From: Gammaproteobacteria bacterium
GTDB lineage: Bacteria > Pseudomonadota > Gammaproteobacteria > Pseudomonadales > Pseudohongiellaceae
Assembly (NCBI GenBank): GCA_030682575.1
Contig: JAUXNX010000003.1
Span: 124,001-188,000, forward strand
Direction of reading: 5' to 3'
Length of the DNA stretch: 64,000 nucleotides
Shown: positions 2,114 through 9,053 of the stretch, piece by piece
How the letters are laid out: every line of letters begins with the position of its first letter
Numbering within the stretch: the first letter of the stretch is position 1
Translations under genes and position numbers: made by a program
The notes under the pieces: generated by a model
The model's input: only the letters and a program-made list of their open reading frames with translations
The model's database searches: none
Told to the model about the DNA's origin: nothing

Positions 2114-2818
2114 TCAGCCCTCCTGCATCAGCTCGCGTCGCAGCCTGCCGATGGCTCCCATGGGATTGAGGCCTTTGGGACACACCCAGGTACAATTTCC
2201 GATGGTGCGACAACGAAACAGACTGAAAGGATCCTCCAGGTCGTTCAGTCGCTCCATTCGGGCCTGATCACGGCTATCAAGAAGGAACCGTAACGACTGC
2301 AACAGCGCCGCCGGCCCCTGATATTGTTCTGGATTCCACCACCAGGAAGGGCATTGGGACGTGCAGCATCCACAGAGAATGCACTCATACAGTCCATCCA
2401 GTTTGGCGCGCTCCTCAGGGGACTGTCGTCGCTCGGTAGCAGGAGGCACATCATGGGTGATGAGCCAGGGCTTGATGCTTGCGTATTGCTCGAAGAAAAG
2501 CGTCTGATCCACCACCAGATCGCGAATCACCGGCATGCCCGGCAAGGGCCTGATGATCAACCTGTTGGATGTTCCGATAGCTTCACCAACAGGCTTGATG
2601 CAGGCCAGCCAGTTCTTGCCGTTGATATTCATGCCATCCGAACCGCAGACCCCCTCTCTGCATGAGCGCCGATACGCCAGCGTCGGATCTTTTTCTCGCA
2701 GGTACTCCAAGGCATCCAGAACCATCCGGTGACGGAATTCTTCTGGAAGTGAGACGTGCTGCATATACGGAGAAATATCGTGCTCGGGATGGTATCGATA
2801 GATCTCGGCGTTGATCAT
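2114..2818 (-). CDS. SdhB-like iron-sulfur protein (succinate dehydrogenase B family paralogue)
   Basis: This 234-residue protein is clearly homologous to SdhB, the electron-transfer subunit of succinate dehydrogenase. All cluster ligands are visible: C53, C58, D61 and C73 for the [2Fe-2S] cluster, C146, C149, C152 and C213 for [4Fe-4S], and C156, C203 and C209 for [3Fe-4S]. The quinone-site Trp is kept (W161), but the His that follows the first 3Fe-4S Cys in E. coli SdhB (His207) is Arg204 here. The longer ORF would overlap the P450; the chosen ATG has AAGGAG nine bases upstream. No sdhA, sdhC or sdhD is present. It starts 16 bases after the P450 stop, so it may donate electrons to the P450 rather than work in complex II (inference). 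Confidence 0.85.
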   Translation of the reverse strand: MINAEIYRYHPEHDISPYMQHVSLPEEFRHRMVLDALEYLREKDPTLAYRRSCREGVCGSDGMNINGKNWLACIKPVGEAIGTSNRLIIRPLPGMPVIRDLVVDQTLFFEQYASIKPWLITHDVPPATERRQSPEERAKLDGLYECILCGCCTSQCPSWWWNPEQYQGPAALLQSLRFLLDSRDQARMERLNDLEDPFSLFRCRTIGNCTWVCPKGLNPMGAIGRLRRELMQEG

Positions 2819-2834
2819 GATCTGCTGCTCCTTC

Positions 2835-3977
2835 TCAGTTGAACCGCAGAGGAAGCTCCGCAAGGCCGTTACCGGGATAGCGCGCGCGACGCGGAGCCTC
2901 GCCAGCAAGCTCAAAGCGCCTGGTCTTCGAGAGCAATTCCTCGATCGCGACCTTCATCTCAAGTCTGGCCAGAGAGGCTCCCTGACACAGATGGATGCCC
3001 TTGCCCCAAACCAGACCACCGTCGGTGCTCCGCTCAATATTGACTGCATTGGGCTCATCGAACGCGCGCGGATCGCGATTGGCAGAGATCCACATAAGCG
3101 TCAGGTGCTCTCCCTTGGGAATGGACCGCCCCTGGATCTTGACCTCCCGCATCGTGGTGCGTGGGTTGCAAACCAGCGGACCATCCACGCGCAGAATCTC
3201 CTCTATCGCTGCAGGAATCAGTGACGGATCGCTGCGCAGCCGATCCTGCAGTGCAGTTTCTTGAGCAAGGTGCAGGACAGCAATGCCCAGACCTGCCGCG
3301 ACAGTGCCATGCCCGGCCGTCCAGTTACGCAGGATGCTCACGATCTGATCGTCGTCCAGCAGCACACCCTCGACCTCGGTACTCAATAGTGCGTCTGTGG
3401 CGTCGGCCCCACGGCTTGGTGCAGCACGGTGCGCATCCAGATTGGCCTTGACCTGCTCAGAGAAGAGGCTGGCAAGAGACTTGCCAGCAATCGGATCCTT
3501 GTTGAAGGCCGCCTGCTGACTGCCATGTACCCAATCACCCAGACGCTCCCACTGTTGTTCGGGCCAACCGAGCAAGGCGCACAGTGTCTTCATCGCGTAT
3601 GGATTGATGAAGGATTCGATGAATTCGACTTCACCGCAGCACAGCAGCGCTTCAAGGTGAGCCGCTGCAATCGGGCGTGCAAGTGGCTCGACCTTCGCCA
3701 TGTGCTGACGATCAAAGTGGGGAGAAAGGGCTGCGCTGTAGCGGCCATGCACCGGCGGATCCATCCCGTTCGGAATGGCGAGGAACTGGGAGACATTGCT
3801 GTACGTTTGCGTATCGGCAAGAACTGCGACAACGTCCTCGTGACTGAACAGTGACCATCCCAGGAATTCGCTGTGTGCCACCGGGCATCGCTCTCGCATG
3901 TCGTCATACGCCTGACGCTGGTCCTGCAGAACTGATGCATCCAGGGGATTCCAATCATCTTCCGGGTCTTCGACCAT
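2835..3977 (-). CDS. cytochrome P450
   Basis: A soluble bacterial P450 of 380 residues, at the short end for the family. The heme-binding loop is WGKGIHLCQG with the cysteine ligand at residue 331, and the K-helix ExxR motif is E260-I-L-R263. The I-helix oxygen-activation segment is AGHGT (residues 221-225); the usual acidic residue before the Thr is Gly. The ATG has AAGGAG six bases upstream. The gene lies 33 bases downstream of an RcnB/CigR-like gene and is followed after 16 bases by the SdhB-like gene. No ferredoxin or ferredoxin reductase gene is adjacent, so the neighbouring iron-sulfur protein is the obvious candidate redox partner. The substrate cannot be predicted. Confidence 0.95.
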   Translation of the reverse strand: MVEDPEDDWNPLDASVLQDQRQAYDDMRERCPVAHSEFLGWSLFSHEDVVAVLADTQTYSNVSQFLAIPNGMDPPVHGRYSAALSPHFDRQHMAKVEPLARPIAAAHLEALLCCGEVEFIESFINPYAMKTLCALLGWPEQQWERLGDWVHGSQQAAFNKDPIAGKSLASLFSEQVKANLDAHRAAPSRGADATDALLSTEVEGVLLDDDQIVSILRNWTAGHGTVAAGLGIAVLHLAQETALQDRLRSDPSLIPAAIEEILRVDGPLVCNPRTTMREVKIQGRSIPKGEHLTLMWISANRDPRAFDEPNAVNIERSTDGGLVWGKGIHLCQGASLARLEMKVAIEELLSKTRRFELAGEAPRRARYPGNGLAELPLRFN

Positions 3978-6361: not shown

Positions 6362-7582
6362 TCACTCTGAACTTGTTCCAGCATTGTTCTGTGATCGCTT
6401 GAACGGCAACCCCCCTTCCGCCCCCACCCTATACTCCTTGATGTACTCCCCCTCCCTCTCCAAAAACTCCCCAATCGCCGCATCAAACCGCGCATCCGCA
6501 ATCCAATGATTAGAATACGTAATGATCGGTTCAAATCCCCGCTGAATCTTGTGCTCCCCCTGCGCTCCTGAATCGAAACTCTGCAACCCCTCTTCTATGG
6601 CGTACTCAATGCCCTGGTAGTAACAAGTTTCAAAATGCAGAAACTGATACTCCTGCAGACAACCCCAGTAGCGGCCATAGAGTTTCTCGGAATCGCGAAA
6701 GCTGAGCGCAGCGGCGATGGGGCGCGCATCGAGTGTGGCGACGACGAGCAGGAGGTTGTCGGGCATCACGTCGCTCAGGCGCTGGAAGAATGCCTGGGTG
6801 AGGTAGCCCTGCTGGCCGCGGATCTGGTAGGTATTCTGGTAGAATCGGTAGAACTGTTGCCACATGGCTGGTGTGATGGCGTTTCCGCGGAAACGTGTGA
6901 ACTGGATGCCTGCGCTGTGGACGGCGTCGCGTTCCTTGCGCAGGTTCTTGCGCTTGCGGGAATTGAAGGTGGCGAGGAAGTCGTCGAACGTTTTGTAGCC
7001 TCGGTTGTACCAGTGGAACTGGCAGGCGATGCGTGGGCGCAGGCCTGCGTTGGTGAGGTGGTCGCTTTGCTGCTGGCCGGGGAAGAGGACGTGCCAGGTG
7101 CTGGCGCCGATGCGTCTGGCTTCTGCGATGACGGCCTGGGCGATGGCGTGGGTGATGTGTGCGTGGTCCTCGCTTTCGGCAATGAGCAGGCGTGGTCCGG
7201 TGCTGGGGGTGAAGGGGACGGATGTCAACAGTTTGGGGTAGTAGCGCATGCCGTGCTGGCGGTAGGCGTCAGCCCAGGACCAGTCGAACACGTATTCGCC
7301 GTAGGAGTGGTTCTTGATGTAGAGGGGCATGACGGCGACGAGTGTGTTGTTGCGGGTGACGGACAGGTGATGCGGTTGCCAGCCGGTGGCGGTGTCGGCG
7401 CAGCCGGTTTGTTCGAGCGCGAGGAGGAACTCGTGACGCAGGAAGGGGCTGGTGGTGTTGGTCGCTGAACTGTCAGAAGAGTTGTCGGGCGCGCTGCTTG
7501 CGAGGGCGTTCCAGTGATCGGCTCGGATGTCGGCGATGCTGGGGTGAAACCGGAATTCGTATGTTGCTGCCACTGCTTTCAC
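6362..7582 (-). CDS. COG3146 GNAT-like N-acyltransferase
   Basis: The 406-residue product matches the COG3146 / FemAB-like group of GNAT-fold proteins found in many Proteobacteria; the segment FHWYNRGYKTFDDFL followed by SRKRKNLRKER and the C-terminal FDSGAQGEHKIQRGF are typical. These enzymes are predicted to transfer acyl groups, but substrates are not established. The ORF-track ATG lies deep inside the upstream gene; the better start is GTG at 7582, which overlaps the TGA of the fatty-acid-hydroxylase gene as GTGA. It is the third gene of the ArsR-rhodanese operon. Confidence 0.8.
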   Translation of the reverse strand: MKAVAATYEFRFHPSIADIRADHWNALASSAPDNSSDSSATNTTSPFLRHEFLLALEQTGCADTATGWQPHHLSVTRNNTLVAVMPLYIKNHSYGEYVFDWSWADAYRQHGMRYYPKLLTSVPFTPSTGPRLLIAESEDHAHITHAIAQAVIAEARRIGASTWHVLFPGQQQSDHLTNAGLRPRIACQFHWYNRGYKTFDDFLATFNSRKRKNLRKERDAVHSAGIQFTRFRGNAITPAMWQQFYRFYQNTYQIRGQQGYLTQAFFQRLSDVMPDNLLLVVATLDARPIAAALSFRDSEKLYGRYWGCLQEYQFLHFETCYYQGIEYAIEEGLQSFDSGAQGEHKIQRGFEPIITYSNHWIADARFDAAIGEFLEREGEYIKEYRVGAEGGLPFKRSQNNAGTSSE

Positions 7583-8382
7583 CTGTTGCGGAATGGCTGC
7601 ATAAGCATGGCGCCCAGCCTTTGGTCCTTCTCCGTGCGAAAGTACTCGAGTCCGATGGTCATGCCAAGGTGTCCTTTCTCGGGCTGATCGCGATAGGTGC
7701 CAAACAGTCGATCCCACCACGGCAGATTGAAGCCGAAGTTGCTGTCGGTTTCCTGCCGGATGATGGAGTGATGCACGCGGTGCATGTCCGGCGTGACGAC
7801 GAGCAGGCGCAGGCAGCGATCCAGCCAAAGCGGCATGCGCACATTGCCGTGATTGAACATGGCGGTGGCGTTGAGCACGATCTCGAAGATGATCACGGCC
7901 AGCGGTGAGGCGCCGAGGGCCACTACCACCGCGATCTTGATGATCATAGACAGCAGTATCTCAATGGGATGGAAGCGCAGTGCGGTGGTGACGTCGAATT
8001 CCTGATCGGCGTGGTGCATGCGGTGCAGGCGCCAGAGCACAGGGACGGCGTGAAAGAGTCTATGCTGAAAGTATACGGCAGCGTCCAGTACCAGAACGGC
8101 CAGGATCAGCGCGAGCCAGCCTGGCACTGCCAGCAGGTTGAACAGACCCCAGCCCTGCTCCTGTGCATATATCGCGGCACCCACGGCGGCCAGGGGGAAT
8201 GCGAGTCGAACCACGGCAGTGTCCAGCAACACGACCAGCAGGTTGGCCGGCCAGCGTTTGGAGCGGCGCAACTGCTGTGGTCGTCGTTCGGCCAGCAACT
8301 CCCATGTCGCCATGACGAGCAACACGGCAAGAAAGATGACGAGTCTTGTCAGGGGTTCGTTGCTCAGCAACGATGTGTTCAC
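7579..8382 (-). CDS. sterol desaturase / fatty acid hydroxylase family protein
   Basis: A 267-residue membrane-bound di-iron oxygenase of the fatty acid hydroxylase superfamily. The eight-histidine pattern is readable: HRLFH, HRMHH and HRVHH, with an extra FNHGN between. There are hydrophobic spans near residues 10-28, 44-65 and 76-96, and another pair in the middle. The ORF-track start lies upstream; GTG at 8382 overlaps the TGA of the ArsR-rhodanese gene as GTGA, giving translational coupling. Members hydroxylate or desaturate sterols, carotenoids, fatty alcohols or sphingoid bases; the substrate here is unknown. Confidence 0.88.
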   Translation of the reverse strand: MNTSLLSNEPLTRLVIFLAVLLVMATWELLAERRPQQLRRSKRWPANLLVVLLDTAVVRLAFPLAAVGAAIYAQEQGWGLFNLLAVPGWLALILAVLVLDAAVYFQHRLFHAVPVLWRLHRMHHADQEFDVTTALRFHPIEILLSMIIKIAVVVALGASPLAVIIFEIVLNATAMFNHGNVRMPLWLDRCLRLLVVTPDMHRVHHSIIRQETDSNFGFNLPWWDRLFGTYRDQPEKGHLGMTIGLEYFRTEKDQRLGAMLMQPFRNR

Positions 8383-9053
8383 AGCCGCGCCTCGCCGTAC
8401 TGCACGGGCAGACCCGCGGCCTTCCATTCCGGAAAGCCTTCCTCGAAGCGTCGGACCCGATAGCCGAGGGTGCGCAGGCGTTTTGCCGCCTCGTGGGAGA
8501 GGACGCAGTAGGGGCCACGGCAGTAGGCGACGATCTCCTTGTCGCGGGGGAGCAGGATAAGCAGGTTTTCCAACTGGTCCAGGGGAATGTTGGTGGCACC
8601 GGTCAGGTGGCCTGCGGCATATTCCGACTCGGGGCGGACATCGAGCACCGCCATGTGTCCGCTCTCCAGTCCCGCCAGCAATTCACTGCGCGATACCGGC
8701 TTCATGACGTCATTGGAATCGTCGTCGCTGAACAGCCGCGCCAGCAGTCTTTCCATCTCTGCCAGATTGGTTTCTGCCACCTGCCGCAGCAGGTTTATCA
8801 AGATGATGATGCGTTCGTCGGTCAGGCGATAGAACATCTGTTTGCCATCCCGCCTCGCTGTCACCAGACCCGCCTTCCGCAGTTGCTGCAGATGCTGCGA
8901 GGCGTTGCCAACGGTCAGATCCGCCAGGCTGGCCAGTGTCTCCACTGATGCTTCGGCCTGGGCAAGGCGTTCCAGCAGGGCCAGACGGTTGCCGTTGGCC
9001 AGGCCATTGGCGACGAGGGCCAGGGTGTCGTGCAATTCCTTTTTGGTGGTCAT
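8379..9053 (-). CDS. ArsR-family regulator fused to rhodanese domain
   Basis: A 224-residue fusion. Residues 1-95 form an ArsR/SmtB winged helix (LTVGNASQHLQQLRKAGLV is the recognition region, then the RRDGKQMFYRL wing). Residues 118-220 form a rhodanese domain with active loop CRGPYC. The ArsR half contains no cysteine, so unlike metal-sensing ArsR or the sulfide sensor BigR, any sulfur sensing would depend on the rhodanese cysteines. It is the first gene of a three-gene coupled operon, and a near-perfect palindrome lies 65-82 bases upstream of the start, suggesting autoregulation. Confidence 0.92.
   Translation of the reverse strand: MTTKKELHDTLALVANGLANGNRLALLERLAQAEASVETLASLADLTVGNASQHLQQLRKAGLVTARRDGKQMFYRLTDERIIILINLLRQVAETNLAEMERLLARLFSDDDSNDVMKPVSRSELLAGLESGHMAVLDVRPESEYAAGHLTGATNIPLDQLENLLILLPRDKEIVAYCRGPYCVLSHEAAKRLRTLGYRVRRFEEGFPEWKAAGLPVQYGEARL

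Follow-up and report, generated by a model that had tools for sequence, protein, structure and literature searches.

SdhBx, a lone SdhB paralogue encoded directly downstream of a cytochrome P450 gene in the 64,000-nucleotide stretch of DNA analysed here (the window), is read, tentatively, as a stand-alone SdhB isoform of nitrate and nitric oxide (NO) gene sets, most likely partnered by the constitutive SdhA in trans, with the P450 as a fellow member of these sets. The reading draws on the clade to which SdhBx belongs, its gene linkage, its co-occurrence with other genes across genomes and its residue pattern. SdhBx is real and conserved, with no description found in the literature searched, and the proposal of the preliminary description, that it is the electron donor of the P450, is one option and not the best supported.

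A P450 gene followed by a lone SdhB gene

Both genes are on the minus strand, the P450 gene (3977..2835; 380 aa; PF00067, E=6e-20) being followed after a gap of 16 bp (2819..2834) by the gene for SdhBx (2818..2114; 234 aa; PF13085, E=4e-29, and PF13534). As had been described, SdhBx has its own ribosome-binding site, a GAAGGAG box read directly from the sequence before the likely start, the ATG at 2818; the upstream TTG at 2914 is the start given to the automatic open reading frame. Co-transcription of the two genes is probable. The absence of sdhA, sdhC and sdhD from the vicinity also holds, none being present beside SdhBx at its locus or in the adjoining genes of the window. A search of the genome with the 2Fe-2S domain returned exactly two full SdhB-type Fer2_3 genes, of which the second lies in a complete sdhCDAB on another contig, so that SdhBx is not the only SdhB of this organism.

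Downstream of SdhBx, at 1340-1954, is a gene for an FMN_bind protein with 28% identity over ~140 residues to NosR-like proteins of Halomonas (L181 and L050). Further along, the ArsR-rhodanese and sterol-desaturase-like genes at 7579-9053 have homologues, 72% identical, in Halomonas (L155:3390-4880), where these adjoin hmp, Yip1, MarR, P450 and nirF genes, hinting at a possible common island history. A role in anti-phage defence was rejected, since PADLOC gave no match.

Clade and residue pattern of SdhBx

A genome-wide scan returned 80 loci. Those most like SdhBx (L010-L073) share 65-82% identity with it, or 61% for L073, and have no SdhA match nearby, while most of the loci at ~60% identity lie within sdh operons. 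The lone SdhBs form one group in the tree, apart from the SdhB of complex II (SH-aLRT 93; 100/99 in a second tree), as the preliminary description had anticipated, and can be told from canonical SdhB by score (≥437 bits against ≤419 bits). Members come from Pseudomonas, Stutzerimonas, Denitrificimonas, Halomonas and its relatives, Marinobacter, Alcanivorax and the Halieaceae, and all 40 of the SdhBx genomes sampled carry at least one further full SdhB gene. In the window's own family SdhBx is found in 2/99 genomes and the P450 in 3/99; the sole other SdhBx genome there is of the same genus, and in it SdhBx follows nnrS. A second SdhBx is present in Marinobacter azerbaijanicus (L157:5340-8549), followed by a gamma-lyase-like gene and then the P450 gene.

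SdhBx consists of Fer2_3 and Fer4_17 domains and, in agreement with the earlier claim, the alignment shows the full set of iron-sulfur ligands at invariant columns: C53, C58, D61 and C73 for the 2Fe-2S cluster, C146, C149, C152 and C213 for the 4Fe-4S cluster and C156, C203 and C209 for the 3Fe-4S cluster. The 3Fe-4S and quinone-site end (CRTIGNCTWVCPKGLNPM, 2159..2212, minus strand), which includes Arg204, Gly207, Trp211 and Met220, is where the clade-specific changes cluster. Arg204, at the position of E. coli His207, had been taken as a sign that electrons are no longer handed to a quinone. The residue is indeed there, but that interpretation was rejected, because Arg is found in 32 of the 48 complex II SdhB proteins compared (His in the other 16) and also in the complex II SdhB of the window genome itself, where the motif reads CRGIMNC. 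The neighbouring change of Met to Gly, on the other hand, is specific to the clade: at position 210 in E. coli numbering, Gly or Ala is found in 64/67 lone SdhBs against Met in 46/48 canonical proteins. Also specific to the lone clade, in the same numbering, are Val213 to Thr or Ser, Trp214, Met223, Trp162, Ser157, Tyr169, Met97 and Gln107, the fixed changes falling at positions 97, 107, 120, 157, 162, 169, 210, 213, 214 and 223.

Of the invariant complex II positions, 37/43 are kept in the N-terminal domain and 59/70 in the C-terminal domain. In complex II it is the N-terminal half of SdhB that faces SdhA. With the N-terminal half conserved and several of the changes close to the quinone site and to ligands of the 3Fe-4S cluster, the simplest account of the residue pattern would be an isoform that docks on SdhA. 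Because Pro160, Ser161, Trp163, Trp164 and Ile209 of the quinone site (E. coli numbering) are kept, quinone reduction may persist. The identity of 61% between SdhBx and the complex II SdhB of its own genome would allow it to be ordinary redundancy, a decaying duplicate with no separate role, but this is very improbable given that Ser157, Trp162, Tyr169, Trp214 and Met223 are fixed throughout the clade and that the protein is kept across several gammaproteobacterial families with its ligands intact, and has arisen a second time in the Burkholderiales.

The lone SdhBs of the Burkholderiales branch with the complex II SdhB of Burkholderia (99/95), independently of the gammaproteobacterial clade. 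They score 465-516 bits against the NCBIfam model NF009225 (PRK12575), above its cut-off of 443, while the window SdhBx (332 bits) and that of Halomonas (376 bits) fall below it. Some are found in plasmid islands of narGHJI, nnrS and hemerythrin genes, and others, in Mycetohabitans and B. multivorans, are away from NO genes. In two Burkholderia proteins (L214 and L218) all six departures from the invariant positions are at sites also changed in the gammaproteobacterial clade, namely 157, 162, 169, 210, 213 and 223 (p=4e-6, assuming equal mutability of invariant sites); all are in the C-terminal half, several of them beside 3Fe-4S ligands, and the invariant positions of the N-terminal half are untouched. 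The shared sites may simply tolerate change, since the SdhB of Ascaris mitochondrial complex II carries four of the six (Tyr162, Tyr169, Thr213 and Ala223). All six Burkholderia lone SdhBs of the set have Arg207, and both Burkholderia complex II proteins have His. Sets of sdhC-sdhD-sdhB are present on plasmids of Azoarcus KH32C (L226:6250-7690), where a hemerythrin gene follows, and Variovorax SRS16 (L229:5258-6750), both with the 3Fe-4S motif CRTIMNC. No SdhA match was found at either set, which would imply that SdhA is supplied in trans.

Linkage to nitric oxide and nitrate-respiration genes

Genes at the loci were called with a codon-usage gene caller, and most neighbours were named by family clustering and by reading the sequences. 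Directly upstream of SdhBx is norCBQD at two loci (L028 and L029) and norCB at a third (L017). NorR is encoded near SdhBx at L038, L045, L062, L183 and L185 (702 bits to NCBIfam NF003451 for that at L045) and flavohemoglobin (hmp) at 17 loci, the protein at L065 falling just short of the NF009805 cut-off (431.5 against 432). NirK-like proteins are encoded at L071 and L073, where the 178 bits to TIGR02376 are below the cut-off; nnrS, hemerythrin and NarX/NarL genes are other recurrent neighbours, and NirF-like and cytochrome c genes are found beside SdhBx in Halomonas. Three Halomonadaceae negative for NorB (L183-L185) have narG together with NorR, NarXL, NnrS or Hmp beside SdhBx. At the window locus itself there is no clear NO gene, and NorB was not found in the window genome. 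Upstream of SdhBx, NorR, DNR/FNR and sigma-54 motifs showed no enrichment. NsrR-like AT-rich palindromes were seen by eye in this region at L037 and L050. A secreted-looking protein of ~113 aa with a TETPQEGFALA motif is encoded at L055:5593-5934 and at 18 other loci, and in many Halomonas its gene is directly upstream of SdhBx.

The same association is apparent across 121 Halomonadaceae and 299 Pseudomonadaceae genomes, where NorB was scored as two types, with three lower-scoring matches (L204, L206 and L207) read as NorB-like; all p-values for co-occurrence ignore phylogeny. SdhBx, NorB and the P450 occur in 15, 19 and 9 of the Halomonadaceae, with overlaps of 9 for SdhBx and NorB (p=2.5e-5), 7 for the P450 and SdhBx (p=3e-6) and 8 for the P450 and NorB (p=7e-7). 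Among the Pseudomonadaceae SdhBx occurs in 26, the P450 in 21 and NorB in 123, the corresponding overlaps being 22 (p=3e-6), 12 (p=2e-9) and 21/21 (p=3e-9). NorB is thus present in 9/15 Halomonadaceae with SdhBx against 10/106 without it, and in 22/26 against 101/273 Pseudomonadaceae. Among 41 genomes with SdhBx it was found in 31; 29 of the 30 P450-bearing genomes in the two families are NorB-positive.

The preliminary description proposed that SdhBx is a dedicated, three-cluster, ferredoxin-like donor to the P450, for which the pair would be expected to recur, and in part it does. Besides the strong co-occurrence, the two genes lie within ~7 kb of each other in 16 genomes, the window genome included, and same-orientation tandems of the P450 and then SdhBx, 16-136 bp apart, are present in the window, in Seongchinamella (L011) and in a Halomonadaceae genome (L180), in the last case between norR and nnrS. 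Each of the three pairs has a different P450 sublineage, and this recurrence speaks for a functional link between P450 and SdhBx in those genomes. The remodelling of the 3Fe-4S end, fixed in the clade, also fits a dedicated donor. An exclusive partnership, however, leaves unexplained the 20/41 SdhBx genomes that have no P450 of this subfamily (A1) and the 11/30 P450 genomes, in the two families, that have no SdhBx; since the association fails in both directions, neither protein depends on the other. In many genomes the P450 relatives are far from SdhBx, conservation of the SdhA-facing N-terminal domain almost equals that in complex II, which is unexpected for a stand-alone ferredoxin, and SdhA apart there is no candidate reductase for SdhBx at the locus. 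A dedicated donor is therefore possible but not preferred.

At the other extreme, the two could be independent genes of an NO regulon whose products do not interact physically, and which would be adjacent because they are regulated together and because islands of stress genes move horizontally. Their membership of the same wider gene set, in arrangements that vary widely and often place the two several kb from each other or in divergent orientation, would agree with this, as would their sporadic occurrence in the window's family, but recurrence of the tandem with different P450 sublineages makes it rather unlikely. Because relatives of both genes recur beside NO and nitrate genes, it is probable that these are parts of a little-studied NO response, and less so that they are a private electron pair.

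The P450 subfamily and possible roles

The P450 belongs to a denitrifier-associated subfamily, A1, which is set apart by score (>450 bits to the A1 model, against ≤191 bits for other P450s). The window protein scores 578.9 bits to this model and 71.8 bits to PF00067 (cut-off 22.8), shares 32-45% identity with the rest of A1, and has both the ExxR motif (EEILR) and the heme-binding motif (GKGIHLCQG), in which Cys331 (codon 2985..2987, minus strand) is the heme ligand. In the I-helix, RNWTAGHGT (3303..3329, minus strand), the alcohol of the usual O2-activating acid-alcohol pair is kept as Thr225 and Gly occupies the position of its acidic partner; the AGHGT segment is one residue shorter than the GELGT of most relatives. 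The acid, its position judged by alignment to CYP125, is missing from 38/38 distinct A1 sequences read, which have Gly, Ala or Ser instead, and the Thr is kept in nearly all of them. As P450s using other proton routes are known, this loss is only suggestive of a role other than that of a monooxygenase. No function could be assigned from structure, the predicted model (pLDDT 77) matching general bacterial P450s only.

Outside the two families, plasmids of Paraburkholderia and Caballeronia carry the P450 between narGHJI and nnrS/hemerythrin genes, in islands that also hold a lone SdhB; among rhizobia its neighbour is nirK in Ciceribacter and nnrS in both Ensifer and Shinella. The sublineage of the window P450 comprises two members from the window's family and a cyanobacterial plasmid protein, and no NO genes were seen near these relatives, so that the NO context of the window P450 is borrowed from its homologues. 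In one relative from the window's family (L192:1428-3172) the P450 gene, by eye, overlaps a heme oxygenase-like gene and adjoins a bacteriophytochrome-like gene. In one group of Pseudomonadaceae (L193, L196, L198, L201, L158 and L159) the P450 has a conserved location amid housekeeping genes and at a distance from NO genes; these genomes are all NorB-positive.

One role that would unite the conserved SdhA side of SdhBx, its changed 3Fe-4S and quinone side and the NO neighbourhoods is that SdhA and SdhBx form a reductase, soluble or only loosely attached, that draws on succinate to serve several acceptors under NO stress, among them the P450 as an NO reductase or NO scavenger. The missing I-helix acid, the near-constant presence of NorB with the P450 and its proximity to nirK, nnrS and narGHJI would all fit. 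At ~+30 mV, however, succinate is poorly suited to reducing a typical ferric P450, and the residues kept at the quinone site also argue against such a branch, which we consider improbable. It is more doubtful still that A1 is a bacterial counterpart of P450nor, widespread in denitrifying Pseudomonadota and reduced by succinate through a lone SdhB on the ordinary SdhA; were this so, the TCA cycle would be coupled directly to the removal of NO.

Under the preferred reading, that of an SdhB isoform belonging to the nitrate and NO gene sets, SdhBx would still dock on SdhA, which we infer to be provided in trans, with its outlet end tuned for use during nitrate respiration or exposure to NO, and the NO context of its relatives would carry over to the window genome. 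Complex II carries NO-sensitive iron-sulfur clusters. Were NO to damage or block the complex, SdhBx might replace the ordinary SdhB or, alternatively, sit on SdhA and, with its remodelled 3Fe-4S end, give electrons another way out, and succinate oxidation would accordingly continue or be redirected. The P450 would be a heme-thiolate protein of the same gene set in which the acidic half of the normal pair for O2 activation has been lost; in the window genome the two are probably co-expressed, yet the P450 would not be the reason for the presence of SdhBx. To our knowledge, the repair or replacement of complex II during denitrification is poorly understood. Lone SdhBs of at least two origins, often linked to nar, nor and nnrS, together with the sdhCDB sets, suggest that there are swap-in parts of complex II for NO stress. 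The P450 subfamily, tied to denitrification in three proteobacterial classes and with no role found in the literature searched, is a candidate heme enzyme of NO metabolism.

Comparison with known systems

By title and abstract, no literature was found linking sdhB or a P450 with nnrS, norR or denitrification clusters. The main text of the study of the NorR, NsrR, DNR and NnrR regulons by Rodionov et al, 2005 (PMC1274295) mentions neither a P450 nor sdhB or succinate dehydrogenase. These NO regulons overlap with the SdhBx loci in their neighbours (nor, nir, nnrS, hmp, NorR and Rrf2-family regulators) and differ in that no regulator motif is enriched upstream of SdhBx. NF009225 carries only the general name of a succinate dehydrogenase/fumarate reductase iron-sulfur subunit; as with SdhBx, some of its lone SdhBs share nar/NO islands with P450s of subfamily A1. 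SdhBx is like the SdhB of E. coli (1NEK chain B; TIGR00384 dhsB / NF004616; 305.6 bits) in length and in its three sets of cluster ligands, but unlike complex II SdhB it has no co-encoded sdhA, sdhC or sdhD, falls in a separate clade and has fixed residue changes. Fungal P450nor (CYP55), which acts on NO, also has no acid in the I-helix. The nearest solved structures to A1 by profile and fold are not P450nor but ordinary bacterial P450s (CYP125 and CYP109), and the likeness of A1 to P450nor would lie in its tie to denitrifiers, seen in the co-occurrence of A1 with NorB and in its proximity to NO genes.
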